Assembly: GCA_015066445.1 (NCBI GenBank)
Contig: SVOK01000020.1
Span: 1-36,395 of the forward strand
DNA: 36,395 bases
Origin: Oscillospiraceae bacterium
GTDB taxonomy: Bacteria > Bacillota > Clostridia > Oscillospirales > Acutalibacteraceae
Direction of reading: 5' to 3'
Under the pieces are notes generated by a model, which was given only the letters and a program-made list of their open reading frames with translations, was not told the origin of the DNA and made no database searches. Shown in pieces: positions 29,232-36,395 of this stretch (positions are counted from its first letter, which is position 1; every line of letters begins with the position of its first letter). Position numbers and translations under genes: made by a program.

Positions 29232-30488
29232 TTATCCTCTCTTTGCTAAAACTTGCGTTTCGTAATTCTTAACGGTGCTGAACCATTCGCCATCAAGCGG
29301 AGCGTTACACTTTCTGCAATATTCTGCCCAGACATCTCCAAAAGGCATTGTTTTAAGCTCCTCTGCTCTTACCATAAGCTCGCTCCAGTTATCACTGTTC
29401 TGCAAATTGGTCATATCAGGGGTAAGTAATGCCATAAGTAAAGCCTTTTGAGTATTTCTAAGACCTACTGTCCAAGCGGAAATTCGGTTAATTGATGCAT
29501 CAAAATAGTCAAGTGCGATTTTTACTCTGCCCTCAAGACCGCCGCAACGAACTATCTCTTTGCAGATTTCCTTTGTTTCGTCGTCAAGAAGTACCACATG
29601 GTCACTATCCCAACGGATAGGTCTTGTTACGTGAAGTGCAATTTCGGGGAAGAATGCGAGCAAAGCAGGAATTTTGTCTGACACAACCTCTGTTGGGTGA
29701 TAATGTCCGTTATCCATAAGGGGAATACATTTGTCGCTGTTAGCCGCAGCATAAGAGAGTGAGAACTCTGCACTGCCTACAGTATAAGCCTCAACACCGA
29801 TACCGAATACCTTACTCTCAACACAGGGCTTTACTTTGTTGAAATCAAAAGGCTCGGAAAGAATTTCGTCGATAGCTTCCTTATAACGAACACGTGGACC
29901 CATTCTGTCAGCCGGAATATCCTTAAAGCCGTCGCCTGTCCAGATATTCATAACACATTCCTGACCTAATTCTTCAGCAAAATACTGTGAAATTCTGATA
30001 CACGCTTTACCGTGCTCTATCCAGAACTTTCTTGTTTCCTCATTGGGGCTTGAAAGGGTTAAGGGGTCACATTTAGGGTGTGAAAAGAATGTAGGGTTAA
30101 AGTCACAGCCAAGACCTCTTTCTTTGCAGAAATCGACCCATTTTTTAAAGTGCTTAGGCTCGATTTTATCCCTGTCAACCCAGCCGCCGTTTTCATCATC
30201 AAAAATAGCATAGCAAGCGTGAAGATTAAGCTTTTTAGTACCGGGGCAAAGCTTTAAAGCGACATCTAAATCTGCCATTAGTTCTTCGGGTGTAGTTGCT
30301 CTGCCGGGATAGTTACCTGTAGTCTGAATACCGCCCGATAACGCATCAACCTTCTGGTCAAAGCCTCTTACATCGTCACCCTGCCAGCAATGAAGTGCCA
30401 CAGGAACACTCATAAGTTTTTTAATTGCAGCATCAGTATCAACACCGATTTTTGCGTACATTTCTTTAGCTTCTAAATATCTGCTCAT
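29232..30488 (-). CDS. rhaA: L-rhamnose isomerase
   Basis: A 418-residue enzyme converting L-rhamnose to L-rhamnulose, of the usual length for the family. Recognisable segments are VPVALHCWQGDDVRGFD near the N-terminus, LNLHACYA, CDFNPTFFSHP, MNIWTGDGFKDIPADR, LMDNGHYHPTE and HVTRPIRWDSDHVV, which carry the metal-binding His, Asp and Glu residues. The start at 30488 follows GGAGGTTTAAA and lies one base after the rhaB stop. Confidence 0.96.
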   Translation of the reverse strand: MSRYLEAKEMYAKIGVDTDAAIKKLMSVPVALHCWQGDDVRGFDQKVDALSGGIQTTGNYPGRATTPEELMADLDVALKLCPGTKKLNLHACYAIFDDENGGWVDRDKIEPKHFKKWVDFCKERGLGCDFNPTFFSHPKCDPLTLSSPNEETRKFWIEHGKACIRISQYFAEELGQECVMNIWTGDGFKDIPADRMGPRVRYKEAIDEILSEPFDFNKVKPCVESKVFGIGVEAYTVGSAEFSLSYAAANSDKCIPLMDNGHYHPTEVVSDKIPALLAFFPEIALHVTRPIRWDSDHVVLLDDETKEICKEIVRCGGLEGRVKIALDYFDASINRISAWTVGLRNTQKALLMALLTPDMTNLQNSDNWSELMVRAEELKTMPFGDVWAEYCRKCNAPLDGEWFSTVKNYETQVLAKRG

Positions 30489-30489
30489 T

Positions 30490-31860
30490 TTAAACCTCCA
30501 CAATACTAAAAGATTTTTTTACAGTTTCTCTTGCTTTTTCAAGAGTAAAATCATTATCCAAATACATAAATTGGGCTATAAGGTTACCGATAGCTGTAGC
30601 CTCTGTAGGGCCTGCGAGCACCTTTTTACCTGTGTACTCTTTAGTAAGCTTGTTTAAATAACTATCCTTACTGCCGCCACCGATAATATTGATTAAATCT
30701 ATCTGCTTACCGCTTACTCTTTCAATAGTTTTTACAGCTTCATTGTAAGAGTTTGCAAGTGAATTATAAACTGAATTAAGCACATCACCTATGGGAAGAT
30801 CAGGTTTGTCCAGATATTTTCTTATAGCCTCTATCATATTTTCGGGAGCAGTAAATTCAGGAGAATTTGGATTAATAAGCTCCTTAAAATCGCTTTCCAT
30901 TGCCATATTCATCATTTCATCATAGCTATACTTTTTATCAAGATTGCATCTTATATTCTGGAATAGCCACATACCCATAATGTTTTCAAGGAAACGGTAA
31001 CGGTAATTAATTCCGCCCTCATTTGTAAAGCCGCCGTTCATAGCTTCTGCATTTAAAATCGGCTCTTTATTTTCAGTGCCGATGAGACTCCAGGTGCCCG
31101 AAGAAATATAAACACCGTTGTCGCCCACAGGGCAGGCTGCAACCGCAGATGCAGTATCGTGAGAGGGGCAGAAAATAACGGTAGTATCAAACCCAACCTC
31201 TTCCCTTACCTCATCACTTAAATTTCCTACAACAGTTGTAGGCAGTGATAATTCTTTAAATATATCCGTTTTAATGCCCAAAAGCTTTAATAAATCTTTG
31301 TCAAGCGTTTTGGTTTTCGCATTTACTATTGAGCCTGTTGTGGCATTAGTGTATTCATTCTTAATAACACCCGTAAGCTTGAAAGAGAGGTATTCAGGTA
31401 TCATCAAAAAATGAGCCGCCTTATCTAACTTCCCTGACTTCTTATCACAATAAAGCTGATAAATTGTATTAAAATTAATCGGCTGTATACCTGTTCTTTT
31501 ATAAAGCTCCTCTCGGGGGATAATTTTGTCAATTTCTTCAGGGATGCCGTTTGTGCGGCTGTCTCTGTAAGAAATAACAGGCATTATTTCCTTTTTGTTC
31601 TTATCAAGAAGAACATAGTCAACACCCCAAGTATCAATAGCAACAGTGCAAGGTATCTTACCCAAAGCACCGCAAGCCTTAAGACCTGCCTTAACCTCTG
31701 CAACTAAATGCTCAATATCCCAAACAAGTGTGCCGTTTTGGTTTGTAATATTATTTTCAAATCGGTATACTTCCTGCTGTTTAAGAATACCGCCTTCAAG
31801 CCAGCCTAAAATATGTCTTCCGCTTGAAGCACCTATATCTACTGCCAAAGAATAACGCAA
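30490..31860 (-). CDS. rhaB: Rhamnulokinase
   Basis: A 456-residue FGGY-family sugar kinase that phosphorylates L-rhamnulose at C1. It shows the N-terminal ATPase motif SLAVDIGASSGRHI, VAIDTWGVDYVLLD, FCPSHDTASAVAA, ISSGTWSLIG and the C-terminal INIIGGGSKDSYLNKL. The frame is open to 31965, but that extension lacks a ribosome site and reaches the AraC stop. TTG at 31860, seven bases after GGGAGG, gives the family N-terminus. It is first of the three catabolic genes. Confidence 0.93.
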   Translation of the reverse strand: MRYSLAVDIGASSGRHILGWLEGGILKQQEVYRFENNITNQNGTLVWDIEHLVAEVKAGLKACGALGKIPCTVAIDTWGVDYVLLDKNKKEIMPVISYRDSRTNGIPEEIDKIIPREELYKRTGIQPINFNTIYQLYCDKKSGKLDKAAHFLMIPEYLSFKLTGVIKNEYTNATTGSIVNAKTKTLDKDLLKLLGIKTDIFKELSLPTTVVGNLSDEVREEVGFDTTVIFCPSHDTASAVAACPVGDNGVYISSGTWSLIGTENKEPILNAEAMNGGFTNEGGINYRYRFLENIMGMWLFQNIRCNLDKKYSYDEMMNMAMESDFKELINPNSPEFTAPENMIEAIRKYLDKPDLPIGDVLNSVYNSLANSYNEAVKTIERVSGKQIDLINIIGGGSKDSYLNKLTKEYTGKKVLAGPTEATAIGNLIAQFMYLDNDFTLEKARETVKKSFSIVEV

Positions 31861-31961
31861 AAAAAGACCTCCCTTATATTGCTTTATAGTTATTTTACCA
31901 TAACAGCAGCTTAAAAGGTAGGTCTTAAATTTGTCAAAAAAGTGTCCTCTCTTGCAGAAAA

Positions 31962-32927
31962 TCAATTTAGCTGACGTGAGCTTAATCTGTATTCTCTTGG
32001 GGACATATTAAAGCTTTCTGCGAATTTTCTGTGGAAATAGCTTATATTTTCATATCCCACAGCATTAGAAATATCAGAAATCTTGCCGTTTGTATTTTTA
32101 AGCAAAAACGCCGCCTGTGAAAGCCGTTTTTCCTGTATGAGCTTAGTGTAGGTTTTACCTGTTTTTCGCAAAATTTCACGTGAAAGCCAGCTGATATCGT
32201 AGTGAAGCTCCTCTGCTATCTCGGTAAGACTTCCGCTAACATAGTTCGTTTCAACATAATTCAGTATTTTTAAAACCGCTTCGTCCTCCCGTGTTTCTGC
32301 GACAAGGCTTTCAGTATTAGCTAAAAGCTGCATAAAAAGCAACTCCATTGTCATCTGGCTTTGTTTTCGTTTATTGGGAGCTTGCCCTATAACCGTAAGC
32401 AGCAAATTCTCTGCCAGATTTTGAATTTCAGTAATATTTGATACCTTATAATGCAGATAATTATTACCCTTGCTATTACCGCAAAGGCAATCTATTAAAA
32501 AGCTTTTAAGCGGAGACTCATCGTCAATATCGGAAAGTGTATCAGCAAAAAAATGCGGAAGAATTATAAAATTAACAGCTATATCTTCCTTTTCAGCTCT
32601 TAATATGCTGTGATTAGCGCTCTGTCCCAAAAACAACAGCTCGCCCTTTTTTAAAATTATTTCCTTACCGTCAACAATGTGGGTGGTAACTCCCTCGCAC
32701 ATATAGACAAGCTCAACATAATCGTGGGTGTGCTCGGGGAAATTTATAAAACGGGTATGCTTTCGCATAGTTATAAGCTTGCCCGATTCCAACAGCTTTT
32801 TGCTGTTAACTATATTTCTTTTGCCCTGCATATAAATATTTCGGTCAATACTTGCCTGTCCTTTGAGAATTTCCTCCTCCTCTGGAGTAATTTCTCTTAA
32901 ATTCTCCAAAATTTCGGCTTTAAGCAC
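31962..32927 (-). CDS. AraC-family regulator of the rhamnose operon
   Basis: A 321-residue AraC/XylS regulator. A cupin-type sensor domain lies at about residues 50-150 (FPEHTHDYVELVYMCEG, GELLFLGQSANHSI). Two helix-turn-helix motifs form the C-terminal DNA-binding domain (about 220-321: LTEIAEELHYDISWLSREI and ISDISNAVGYENISYFHRKFAESFNMSPREYR). It lies directly upstream of rhaB in the same direction and probably senses L-rhamnose, as RhaR/RhaS do; this is inferred from position. Start is GTG at 32927, seven bases after GGGGG. Confidence 0.88.
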   Translation of the reverse strand: MLKAEILENLREITPEEEEILKGQASIDRNIYMQGKRNIVNSKKLLESGKLITMRKHTRFINFPEHTHDYVELVYMCEGVTTHIVDGKEIILKKGELLFLGQSANHSILRAEKEDIAVNFIILPHFFADTLSDIDDESPLKSFLIDCLCGNSKGNNYLHYKVSNITEIQNLAENLLLTVIGQAPNKRKQSQMTMELLFMQLLANTESLVAETREDEAVLKILNYVETNYVSGSLTEIAEELHYDISWLSREILRKTGKTYTKLIQEKRLSQAAFLLKNTNGKISDISNAVGYENISYFHRKFAESFNMSPREYRLSSRQLN

Positions 32928-33067: not shown

Positions 33068-33574
33068 TCAACCTTTAATTTTATCAAGTGCACCCTTTTC
33101 AAGGCGGGAAACCTGCGCCTGACTAATTCCTATTTCCTTAGATACTTCCATCTGAGTTTTACCCTGCATAAAACGCAAAGAAAGAATATTTTTTTCTCTT
33201 TCGCTTAAATTTTTGATAGATTCTTTTAAAGCAATTTCCTGAAGCCAATTATTATCGTCATTATTATCGCCTAATTGGTCAAGCACGTAAATAGTGTCAC
33301 CTCCGTCAGAGTAAACGGGGTCATAAAGCGACATTGGATTCACAACACTTTCCATTGCTATAACTACCTCAGAAGAAGAAAGGCTTAACTCCTTTGCGAT
33401 TTCGGCGACTGTCGGCTCTTGCTGACGCTCAGTCATAAGCCTTTCTTTGACCTGCATAGCCCTGTATGCAGTGTCTTTTATCGAACGACTCACCCGCACG
33501 GCGTTGTTATCCCTTAAATATCTGCGTATTTCACCTATAATCATCGGAATGGTTATAGAATGGCGAAAAAGCAA
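33068..33574 (-). pseudogene. sigG: Sporulation sigma factor G, 5' half missing
   Basis: The protein matches sigma-G from IPMIIGEIRRYLRDNNAVRVSRSIKD to the end: region 3, VVNPMSLYDPVYSDGGDTIYVLDQLGD, and region 4 with LSEREKNILSLRFMQGKTQMEVSKEIGISQAQVSRLEKGALDKIKG. A full sigma-G has about 255 residues; here only about 160 C-terminal residues remain. Region 1.2 and most of region 2, which bind core polymerase and the -10 box, are absent. Homology stops near 33550, where FSTYAV should precede PMIIGE. The upstream sequence contains a hairpin, then element-type genes including a serine recombinase. Either the gene is dead or it is the 3' part of a gene split by a removable element. Confidence 0.85.
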
Positions 33575-33580
33575 TATACA

Positions 33581-33606
33581 TAGAGGATGAACTTTTATCC
33601 ATCCTC
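33581..33606 (-). terminator. Hairpin at the break in sigG
   Basis: AGAGGATG and CATCCTCT (about 33581-33606) form an 8-bp stem; on the minus strand a T-rich stretch (TTGCTTTTTC) follows further on. It lies about 30 bp upstream of the point where sigG homology begins. Confidence 0.5.
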
Positions 33607-33694
33607 TTAATGTCTTATAAATTATCTACTTAATATTATACTTTTTATAGCGTTTTCGGTCAACTGACAATAACTGTAAACTGATTGATATTTG

Positions 33695-35149
33695 TTATTT
33701 GTAATTTACAATTTGATTTAAATTATAGAGCGTAATATTGTCATTGGCATCAGCCTCTGATATAACCTTGCTATCAAACCCTGATTCAGAAAATAGAGCG
33801 TAATAAAACTTTGCAGCATCTTTAAGTGGTGTCAGTTTGGTAACTGTATCAAGATACTCGGAATAATCAAACGGTGTATTTTTGAACTTACATTCACCAA
33901 CCAAATACTCCTTGCCGCCTTTTCCGATGCCGAGGATATCAATTTCGGTTTCAGCAACTCGAACACCTTTAGGTGCATCCTTATCACGCACCGTGGTTTT
34001 TCCTGTCCATCTACCCATTTTTGAATAGCGGAAAGGCAGCTCATTTTTCTTCTGCATCTCTCTTACAAACTCTTTGCACACGTCCTCAAAGGTAAAGGAT
34101 GCAAACTCGTGCAGTGCTGGTGCGATAACATAATCGTAAACGCCGTCTACATCGCCGTTTTCAAGCTGAGAAAAATTTGTAAAACCAAACGCATACCAGA
34201 ATCTAAAGAAATTATCGGTCAAGCGATAAGTGCCTCTGTTTGAGTTGGCTTTTTCCTTGCTTTTGGAATCAACTGAAAACTCACGCTCAACAATTCCAAG
34301 CTCGATAAGATTTTTAAGATATACGCTTGTTTTTGACGTGTCCTCTACGAGAGATTTTTGGCTGATGTCATTAAGCTTTGTATTGCCAAGTGCTACCGCC
34401 TCAATAATTGAGTTGTATATAGGGGTTTCACGAAGCTCTTGATGGAGTAAAAAATCAACCTCGCTATATAAAACTGAACCTTTAGTTAGGATATTTCTCT
34501 TAATATTCTCCGCTAATGAAAGCTTTGAACTAAACTGGCGAAGATAATGCGGAATACCGCCAAGTATGGAATATGCCAACACCTTATCTTTATCCGAATA
34601 ATTCGGGAAGAATTTAACCGCATCATAAAATCCCATCTCTGTCATTTTATAAATGCCGGTTGCCCTTCCGTAAAGCGGATTCTTTTCGGCAAGTAATTCT
34701 TTCTCAATAAAACTCATTGCGCTACCGCACAATACAATCATTACATTTTTATCTTTAAGCTCAGCATCCCAAAGGTTTTGCAGCACAGAGGGGATGCTTT
34801 TATTTCCCTTGCACATATAAGGAAACTCGTCTATGATGAGTAGTTTCTTTTGATCTCCAAAAGGAAAATCTAAAACAGAACGAAAAGCACTTTCCCAATC
34901 TGCAAACTCAGAGATATACTGCTTTGCAGGGATATCCTCTTTCAGAATATGCTTTGAGAATTTAGAAAGCTGAACTTTATCGGTACTTTGCGTGCAGGAA
35001 TAAAACACATGCTGTTTTCCTTTGCAAAACTCTCTTAATGTTTCGGTTTTGCCCACACGACGTCTGCCATAAAGAACAACAAGCTGACCATTCTCATTAT
35101 CAAATTTATCCTGAAGAAACTTTAATTCTGCCTCTCTTCCAATAAACAT
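33695..35149 (-). CDS. ATPase_2/DUF234 ATP-binding protein
   Basis: A 484-residue STAND-like P-loop ATPase of the archaeal-ATPase type. N-terminal Walker A is VVLYGRRRVGKTETL (about residues 24-38), Walker B is LLIIDEFP (about 103-110), and a sensor segment reads VLCGSAMSFIE. A winged-helix region follows (KTSVYLKNLIELGIVER). The C-terminal DUF234 domain has ETEIDILGIGKGGKEYLVGECKF, a pattern like the PD-(D/E)xK nuclease fold. Proteins of this kind are common on mobile elements; function is unknown. It has its own promoter and tandem operator-like repeats, and lies between the broken sigG and a serine recombinase. Confidence 0.85.
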   Translation of the reverse strand: MFIGREAELKFLQDKFDNENGQLVVLYGRRRVGKTETLREFCKGKQHVFYSCTQSTDKVQLSKFSKHILKEDIPAKQYISEFADWESAFRSVLDFPFGDQKKLLIIDEFPYMCKGNKSIPSVLQNLWDAELKDKNVMIVLCGSAMSFIEKELLAEKNPLYGRATGIYKMTEMGFYDAVKFFPNYSDKDKVLAYSILGGIPHYLRQFSSKLSLAENIKRNILTKGSVLYSEVDFLLHQELRETPIYNSIIEAVALGNTKLNDISQKSLVEDTSKTSVYLKNLIELGIVEREFSVDSKSKEKANSNRGTYRLTDNFFRFWYAFGFTNFSQLENGDVDGVYDYVIAPALHEFASFTFEDVCKEFVREMQKKNELPFRYSKMGRWTGKTTVRDKDAPKGVRVAETEIDILGIGKGGKEYLVGECKFKNTPFDYSEYLDTVTKLTPLKDAAKFYYALFSESGFDSKVISEADANDNITLYNLNQIVNYK

Positions 35150-35168
35150 ATTAAAACCTCCGTTAATT

Positions 35169-35197
35169 CAAATCGTAATTTACTAAATCGTGATTTG
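35169..35197. promoter_or_regulatory. Tandem operator-like repeats before the ATPase gene
   Basis: AAATCGTAATTT (35170-35181) and AAATCGTGATTT (35185-35196) are 15 bp apart. The second is a perfect AAATC-N2-GATTT palindrome. The block is bounded by CAAATC and GATTTG. It lies between the -10 box and the ribosome site of the ATPase gene. Confidence 0.5.
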
Positions 35198-35202
35198 ATA
35201 AT

Positions 35203-35231
35203 ATTATATATCATAATTTTTAGAAAATCAA
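35203..35231 (-). promoter_or_regulatory. Promoter of the ATPase_2/DUF234 gene
   Basis: On the minus strand: TTGATT (35231-35226), a 17-bp spacer, TATAAT (35208-35203). Confidence 0.7.
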
Positions 35232-35236
35232 GTGTT

Positions 35237-35277
35237 TTAAAAAATTTGAGGACACAAGTCTAAATAACTGTGTCCTC
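35237..35277 (-). terminator. Intrinsic terminator of the serine recombinase gene
   Basis: GAGGACACA (35248-35256) and TGTGTCCTC (35269-35277) form a perfect 9-bp stem. On the minus strand it is followed by AAATTTTTT. Confidence 0.85.
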
Positions 35278-35289
35278 ATACTAATTATT

Positions 35290-36395
35290 TCATTGTTTAT
35301 TGTCTTCCAAAAGATACTCTTGCAGTTTAAATTTAACCATAATACTCGGCTCTCCGTTAGCACCGCTGATGATAACCTTGTCTATAAGCTGGTCGCACAC
35401 ATGCTTCTTTTCTTCTATGCTCATTACTCCCCAAGACTTTTGAAGGTCACGCAAAAGTTCCCGTGAACGTTCAACCTTAATAGCAATAGTTGATTTTTTG
35501 CTCTCATTTTCAACTGCCTCTTGCAACCGGTCGATTTCTTGCTCACGTTCACTGATAACCTCTAAAAGCTGTTCAGTACCCTTTTCTGCGTAAATGTTAT
35601 AAAGACGTTTAATCTCTTCTTGCTTACGGCGGATCTTCAATTTAAGGTTATCCAACACCTCAAACTGCGAAACTGTCTTCTTTGTATTTTTATTATTAAG
35701 GTAAGACATCTGGAACAATTCTTGCACAACCGCCTCTTCAACATCCTCGGCAAAGTATTTTAGATTCTTACAATCGGGATCTTTAATAAGATACTGTTTT
35801 GTGCTTTGCTGAGAATAGCAGACGATTTTTACACTCTTGCCCCATTTTTGATAGCGCATTTTGGCACCGCAATCTCCACAAACCAAAAGTCCGCTTAAAA
35901 GATATTGTGAACGGGCGTAGGTTATGCTGCGGCGTTCCATCTCTTCTTGCGCCTCATAAAATATTTTTTCGTCAATAAGTGGCTCGTGGTTGCCTGCATA
36001 CTCCTTACCCTTGTAGACCAAATATCCGAGTGAGGTGCGACGTTTTAATATCTGCACAACAATACGTTCACCCTTGAAGCCCAACAAATCCGAAATTTTT
36101 GCAGGCGGCATCTTTTCCTCAACATACAGACGAAAGATTTCCCGAACCTTTTCTTTTTCTTCGGGGACAACATCGTAGTTTCCGGTTTCACGATTGTATC
36201 TGTAGCCATATGGCTGATTACCGCCGCCCATCGGCTTACCCGACTTTATGCGTTCTTCACGTCCGCGTTTCATTTTATAAACGATTTGGTCACGGTCGTA
36301 CTCGGCAAGACCGGCAAACAAGACCAACATCAGTTTAGAAGTGGGATTGTTTCGGTCCACGCTGACAAAAGGTTCAGCAATACTTACGAAGTTAA
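35290..36395 (-). CDS. Large serine recombinase, 5' end beyond the right edge
   Basis: The frame is open from 35290 to the window edge, giving 368 C-terminal residues. The visible part starts inside the resolvase catalytic domain (FVSIAEPFVSVDRNNPTSKLM, LFAGLAEYDRDQIVYKMKRGREERIKSG); the catalytic serine lies off the edge. The recombinase domain follows (PYGYRYN...ILKRRTSLGYLVYKGKEYAGNHEPLID), then the zinc ribbon (LLSGLLVCGDCGAKMRY and a later Cys pair), a coiled coil (about 225-290) and a C-terminal helix. Such enzymes integrate and excise phages and conjugative elements at attP/attB sites. It points towards the broken sigG 1.7 kb away, which fits an element boundary there. Confidence 0.93.
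   Translation of the reverse strand, partial: NFVSIAEPFVSVDRNNPTSKLMLVLFAGLAEYDRDQIVYKMKRGREERIKSGKPMGGGNQPYGYRYNRETGNYDVVPEEKEKVREIFRLYVEEKMPPAKISDLLGFKGERIVVQILKRRTSLGYLVYKGKEYAGNHEPLIDEKIFYEAQEEMERRSITYARSQYLLSGLLVCGDCGAKMRYQKWGKSVKIVCYSQQSTKQYLIKDPDCKNLKYFAEDVEEAVVQELFQMSYLNNKNTKKTVSQFEVLDNLKLKIRRKQEEIKRLYNIYAEKGTEQLLEVISEREQEIDRLQEAVENESKKSTIAIKVERSRELLRDLQKSWGVMSIEEKKHVCDQLIDKVIISGANGEPSIMVKFKLQEYLLEDNKQ

Follow-up and report, generated by a model that had tools for sequence, protein, structure and literature searches.

A recurrent and seemingly restorable interruption of sigG by a site-specific mobile element in Clostridia

Known gene-intervening elements and the sigG case

Several sporulation genes are split by mobile DNA. 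In the skin element in sigK of Bacillus subtilis and Clostridioides difficile, a sporulation sigma gene is divided in frame, a serine recombinase encoded within the element adjoins one gene half in the same direction, and precise joining restores the gene. A comparable layout is described here for sigG in a metagenome-assembled genome (MAG) of an Oscillospiraceae bacterium (GCA_015066445.1; 42 contigs, 1.75 Mb, 87% complete; hereafter G000). The window analysed is one entire contig of this genome (SVOK01000020.1, C33 in our set; 36,395 nt), on which an integrative element encoding a large serine recombinase (LSR) abuts the 3′ part of the gene. The interrupted gene is assigned to sigG by family match, and sigG is taken, from knowledge of the family, to encode the forespore sigma factor. 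The sigG element would be of the same kind as the known gene-intervening elements, but in a forespore sigma gene.

Excerpts of the literature on these elements name sigK, spsM, spoVFB, spoVR, gerE and yabG as interrupted genes (PMC4191935, PMC5595907, PMC10747680), and C. tetani has a prophage in its sigK (PMC5553647, in part). Like the sigG element, yin in yabG, vfbin in spoVFB, vrin in spoVR and SP-beta in spsM are mobile DNA splitting sporulation genes (PMC10747680, PMC4191935). In the same excerpts, excision of SP-beta is confined to the mother cell, vfbin and vrin are elements in mother-cell-expressed genes (PMC4191935), and yabG is under SigK (PMC10747680, PMC4191935). The sigG element differs from these four in hitting a forespore sigma gene, and in several species. 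For C. difficile skin, the part of PMC5025042 consulted describes a constitutive LSR and a directionality factor, CD1234, restricted to one cell type. The gin element in gerE of Bacillus cereus ATCC 10987 shares with the sigG element the use of serine recombinases and, as the passages of PMC5595907 at hand have it, a lack of phage-related genes; gin, however, measures 28.6 kb, has three recombinase genes and was shown to rearrange in sporulation, whereas a single recombinase was seen here. Active lysogeny, a phage regulatory switch, follows the logic of reversible host-gene interruption that is proposed below, but in the sigG element reversal is a proposal, and no structural or packaging gene was recognised in the parts read. 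The latter holds for phage structural genes in the comparison with skin too, whose excision is known, while that of the sigG element is proposed.

The main departure from the known cases concerns the cell in which the gene is used. The mother cell, where sigK works, dies, whereas the forespore, where sigG works, becomes the spore; the gene interrupted here is thus not one used in a terminal mother cell. As far as the excerpts cited above go, known elements sit in mother-cell or late genes, so that the element can leave without loss from the lineage. Mother-cell use describes these cases rather than defining the skin-type mechanism. Repeated settling in sigG breaks the mother-cell rule: either sporulation of the host is blocked, or excision takes place in the cell of the next generation. 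Either answer bears on the persistence of mobile elements in spore formers and on which gut bacteria spread as spores. No report of a split sigG was found in the open-licence full texts searched.

A common insertion site in sigG of several species

The truncated sigG reading frame of the window (168 amino acids, 33068–33574, minus strand) aligns solely to profile positions 94–254 of NF006071 and 91–251 of TIGR02850. Searched with SigG profiles, the G000 genome yields positions 90–251 on the window and 1–98 on another contig (C27:4088–4378, minus strand); a whole sigG was not found in this search of the 87% complete MAG. As the window stops at 36395, the 5′ half is invisible from it. A first-pass annotation of the window had noticed that homology to sigma-G starts abruptly near 33550, downstream of a hairpin, an ATPase and an LSR in one orientation. 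On the DNA the homology begins at a CC (33546–33547), the SigG models match from position 90–94 on, and the upstream features are borne out by domains and coordinates (Table 1). The missing 5′ half that the annotation suggested seeking lies in the same genome, ends in FSTYAV and has a matching attachment site, and the complete copy elsewhere that would have refuted its reading was looked for in G000 and not found.

Both halves of the G000 gene break at the same CC, which makes up positions one and two of the Pro codon in AV-P-MIIGE: the 5′ half terminates in TTTTCTACCTATGCAGTTCC followed across the break by AATGGTTATAGAGTGTCG, and the 3′ half opens with TTCTATAACCATTCC followed by GATGATTATAGG. 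Six 5′ halves (G000, G011, G033, G042, G053 and RGIG3041) have a host-variable base before the CC and always A after it; ten 3′ halves (main element type and G053) always have T before it and a varying base after it. Around the CC, the 12-bp element ends TCTATAACCATT and AATGGTTATAGA are perfect inverted repeats of each other, and such arms are what would be expected of the attP of a serine integrase. Only in the main element type and the G053 variant is the exact crossover dinucleotide pinned; in G013 the crossover can be placed within about 13 bases that include the CC, and in G006 within about 8.

Joining the G000 halves at the CC gives a stop-free SigG of 254 amino acids, and joined frames are likewise stop-free (249–254 amino acids) in all seven genomes with both halves. 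Against the SigG equivalog NF006071 (cut-off 372) the joined G000 protein reaches 422.7 bits; it stays below the cut-off of TIGR02850 (413 versus 457), which none of the 61 genomes searched in the genus attains either. To judge from the sequences, a precise join of the halves would restore sigG. RGIG3041 and six of the ten split genomes of the genus, among them G000, retain both parts.

Among the matches listed, which extend to near E 1e-35, the 61 genomes fall into 47 with a whole sigG, 10 broken at the same site and 4 with neither form (G005, G014, G031 and G060). The split genomes comprise six with both halves (G000, G011, G013, G033, G042 and G053), three with the 3′ half only (G022, G024 and G043) and one with the 5′ half only (G006). 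Eight carry the main element or a close variant, that of G053 having slightly different arms; the other two, G013 and G006, show other element ends, read over 53–106 bases only, at the same site. Of 70 genomes of the genus, 7 have an exact main-type attR; of 394 order-wide genomes, 1 has it (G000 itself; 4 of the 394 belong to the genus). Two matches to the attR pattern in the viral collection do not lie in a sigma gene, by eye, and were dropped as chance. The main type is also present in two further MAGs, RGIG3041 (G070), with both halves, and RGIG3123 (G071), with one contig on which sigE and spoIIGA were recognised by eye next to the sigG host region. The four MAGs of the named collection with an LSR 99–100% identical are Clostridia from the rectum of goat (three) or sheep (one).

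The junction is identical to the base in nine genomes whose host flanks differ, and an assembly joint at 33550 is therefore very unlikely. Gene order beside the halves is the same as beside whole sigG, on both sides in G033 and G011 (compared with G009, G004, G019 and G035), and on both sides in G013 and the 3′ side in G043 and G022 (these three compared with G003 and, for the 3′ side, also with G055). No relative with a whole sigG sharing the flanks of G000 was found among the loci compared. In a tree of 52 sigG 3′ halves (11 split and 41 intact rows), the split label changes nine times, and well-supported branches force at least four of these changes. Its clustering barely exceeds that of shuffled labels, 105 of 500 shuffles needing as few changes; this tree is poorly resolved, with 26 of 49 inner branches open and the bootstrap not settled. 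Its intact rows, like those of the constraint test below, come from 39 of the 47 genomes with whole sigG (omitted: G018, G020, G030, G036, G037, G044, G046 and G048). Element DNA is 91–100% alike across hosts whose sigG 3′ halves are often only 73–86% alike. Together, the syntenic flanks, the scattered split label and the closer likeness of element than of sigG DNA show horizontal spread and repeated insertion. A mobile, LSR-encoding integrative element sits site-specifically in the conserved AVPMIIGE stretch of sigG in several species, an interruption that recurs and that a precise join would undo.

Gene content and traces of selection

The right end of the element, toward the sigG 3′ half, carries in order a 60-amino-acid open reading frame, the LSR of 524 amino acids, an ATPase, the hairpin and attR. 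The LSR is complete in four loci, and Resolvase, Recombinase and zinc-ribbon domains were found in the one copy scanned; the window LSR has the same three domains and is 99% identical to the full copies over the common part. In the window the ATPase, the LSR and the sigG 3′ part all share one orientation. The left end follows the sigG 5′ half and starts with a protein of 193–196 amino acids (MTRK...) with a weak HNH_repeat match below the Pfam cut-off; next come a transglutaminase-like protein, three proteins that match no Pfam family and one RemA-like protein. A group of small genes (about 160, 220–300, 280–300 and 91–93 amino acids, matched by eye) lies near the left end in G000 and G033 and to the left of the LSR in RGIG3041 (L105, 1197–4734; L042, 61–2330). 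Ten proteins from the two ends were compared with PHROGs and gave a clear function for the LSR alone, the other matches being weak and non-structural. In these end pieces no phage structural or packaging gene was recognised with PHROGs, and no conjugation or mobilisation gene with Pfam.

Among PADLOC families the window ATPase matches PDC-S27, an anti-phage candidate (E 3.9e-59), and the element may thus carry a defence gene at its end beside attR. G053 has a different ATPase there (AAA_14/DUF4143; PADLOC PDC-S01). On contig C213 of G053 (L050) a single PDC-S01 ATPase stands between two attR-like sites, at about 683 and 2359 and 1.7 kb apart, a layout that looks like nested or tandem integration with swapped cargo.

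The longest element pieces measure 5.0 kb on the left (G033) and 9.6 kb on the right (RGIG3041); the right piece of G033 would reach 17.3 kb if the metabolic genes that follow it are part of the element. Spaced TTGCAA....TGAACC repeats (L057, 12147–12450; L058, 4187–4400) mark where the G033 and G043 copies diverge and where the metabolic stretch of G033 begins; they look like ends of the IS21 family or iterons. Searches of the 61 genomes recovered the LSR, at E 1e-30 or better, in G000, G033 and G043 only, and the first gene of the left end in G000, G033 and G053 only, plus a fragment at a contig end in G042; in most other split genomes the contigs end just inside the element. Searched for a complete element, viral, phage and plasmid collections gave distant LSRs only (at most 36% identity among the matches listed). 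The first gene had no match in viral contigs or plasmids, and a 283-amino-acid element protein had three distant plasmid matches (27–31%) in the same collections.

Among G033, G043 and RGIG3041 the LSR is 99% identical in protein and about 94% in DNA (dN 0.005–0.006, dS 0.31–0.37). Pairwise dN/dS is 0.013–0.020 for the LSR and 0.022–0.054 for the ATPase; the single pair available for the first gene gives 0.056. These low values place all three genes, and with them the recombination module, under strong purifying selection. At 64 columns that do not vary among 40 intact rows, the ten split 3′ halves show 0–1 changes each (mean 0.30), compared with a mean of 0.325 for intact rows, each left out in turn. 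Measured against the nearest intact relative, median dN/dS is 0.049 for split halves (9 of 10 pairs computable) versus 0.045 for intact genes. Long-standing decay of split sigG is excluded, and recent inactivation is compatible with the data. A survey of two sporulation gene families found gpr in 10/10 split and 35/47 whole-sigG genomes, and SASP in 7/10 and 37/47, respectively; the three split genomes without SASP are MAGs 57–87% complete.

Proposed excision and rival explanations

The most likely use of the interruption, with a probability of about one half, is skin-type developmental excision, in which the recombinase would remove the element at sporulation and restore sigG. The skin-like split put forward in the first-pass annotation stands as far as its geometry recurs in other species and the join restores the SigG frame; excision, its timing and its cell type are inferred. 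Upstream of sigG, a recurrent GTTTA-N14-17-GGTAATA-like sequence resembles a sigma-F promoter. This form is present in 21 of 29 located upstream regions (48 loci were given, 19 not located) and kept in seven of eight split 5′ halves, two of which were read separately. Six element pieces scanned with a slightly stricter sigma-F-like form gave no match. The first element gene begins about 44 bases past the junction, in the direction of sigG, with a ribosome-binding-like sequence and an overlap with the truncated sigG frame. Because of this position and direction, it would be transcribed with sigG in G000, G033 and G053. A sigma-A-like TTGTGT-N17-TACAAT, read by eye, precedes the LSR.

In the version preferred here, modelled on C. 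difficile skin, the LSR would be made constitutively from this sigma-A-like promoter and a directionality factor would confer cell-type control. The best candidate for such a factor would be the MTRK protein, its gene being read in the forespore from the sigma-F-like promoter of sigG itself. The LSR would then excise the element in the sporulating cell and rejoin sigG, and the excised circle would either be lost or have to outlast the spore stage and integrate again once the spore germinates. Split hosts may thus have to excise the element to finish their spores. The stronger version, a germ-line rearrangement with forespore excision under sigma-F, a circle carried in the spore and re-insertion after germination without the directionality factor, is rather doubtful. 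If it were true, each spore generation would pass through the excised state, and a single site in a single gene would have received elements whose ends differ.

A number of points weigh against developmental excision. The GTTTA/GGTAATA form was picked by eye after the sequences had been seen, without a shuffle control, and a sigma-F/G consensus matches only 1 of 30 sigG upstream regions. In G013 a gene start resembling that of the first gene lies on the sigG 3′ side and points away, so that co-transcription with sigG fails and the idea needs another promoter there. The main-type attP of an excised circle, searched as an exact pattern, was not found in the 70 genomes of the genus or in the viral collection, and no joined sigG of a split species was found in assemblies. 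Nor were both forms of one sigG shown in one genome: the sole candidate, RGIG3123, was rejected as a case of excised and integrated forms together, its two sigG regions being just 76% identical and the bin mixed. The element was never seen complete, the halves sitting on separate contigs in all seven genomes with both, and their relative orientation is therefore not visible. Contigs of G011, G042, G024, G022 and G013 end 91–118 bases into the element and that of G006 after 53, which suggests element ends in more than one context, either circles or several hosts per sample. Forespore excision would be inherited, a cost absent from mother-cell elements, and the insertions may be too young for decay to show. 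Finally, on the LSR side of G033 lipid and regulatory genes follow over 12 kb or more, and the element there may be rearranged, part of a misjoined contig or carrying cargo. These 12 kb are questionable as simple cargo: the thioesterase of the cluster has matches of at most 25–27% in the six close relatives searched, but similar stretches occur elsewhere in the genus (up to 84% identity).

The main rival, a less probable but serious one, is a plain inactivating insertion that uses a conserved gene as target and leaves hosts unable to finish sporulation, so that split strains are short-lived or sporeless. It agrees with the movement of the element between species, seen in scattered insertions and in identical LSR DNA shared by RGIG3041 and a distant host whose contig lies in RGIG3123, and with neither circle nor joined form having been seen; recent loss, moreover, would be invisible to the selection tests. 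However, the loss of gpr and SASP that it might predict is not in excess in split genomes, the sigG halves examined are without decay, the other element ends of G013 and G006 use the same site, and the LSR is kept under selection. Insertion might also be reversible and unregulated, a low constant excision leaving a sigG+ minority that alone sporulates while the element spreads by transfer. The sigma-A-like sequence before the LSR, read by eye, and the early contig ends in the five genomes that stop 91–118 bases in fit this idea, yet several hosts sharing one element explain these contig ends equally well, and phage-encoded serine recombinases need a directionality factor to excise, according to the part of PMC5595907 consulted; on balance it is improbable.

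That the two halves are made separately and assemble into a working sigma factor is very improbable. Both are open frames, each could begin at a start codon, and the 3′ halves are conserved, but the 5′ product would bear some 50 to 60 foreign residues and whole sigG is the rule in the genus (47/61, among the matches listed). The break lies inside region 2, presumably between parts that must act as one fold. Still less credible is an assembly or binning artefact: halves on different contigs throughout and the mixed RGIG3123 bin are what it would produce, but the junction is base-exact in nine genomes with different host flanks, and the flanks are syntenic with those of intact relatives in two groups.

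Table 1. Features of the window around the broken sigG, in window coordinates
Feature	Position	Strand	Basis and remarks
AraC/RhaS-like regulator, host flank downstream of sigG, outside the element	31962..32927	-	Adjoins rhamnose genes
sigG 3′ part, PMIIGEIRR to stop	33068..33547	-	Partial NF006071/TIGR02850 matches; 5′ part on contig C27
Crossover CC of the Pro codon, common to attL and attR	33546..33547	-	Junction comparison across split genomes
Attachment-site right arm TCTATAACCATT	33548..33559	-	Exact inverted repeat of AATGGTTATAGA at the other element end, on C27
Short hairpin AGAGGATG...CATCCTCT, inside the element beside attR	33582..33607	-	Read by eye; also present in main-type attR flanks
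ATPase_2/DUF234 ATPase, element gene	33695..35149	-	Pfam; best PADLOC match is candidate defence family PDC-S27
LSR, 367 C-terminal residues	35290..36393	-	Pfam and NCBIfam; N-terminus lost at contig end

Some loci with more than one sigG region were set apart. The RGIG3123 bin holds two sigE–sigG regions (G071:C150 and C55) whose 76% identity points to two organisms mixed. The two sigG pieces of G044 were rejected as a split gene: one is a 97.9% identical variant that runs into the end of its contig instead of stopping at the attachment site. In G027, whole sigG occurs in two regions (C128 and C108) of about 89% identity, from a mixed bin or a duplication. In the window, the host DNA directly downstream of the sigG 3′ half (29232–32927) encodes L-rhamnose isomerase, rhamnulokinase and the AraC/RhaS-like regulator.

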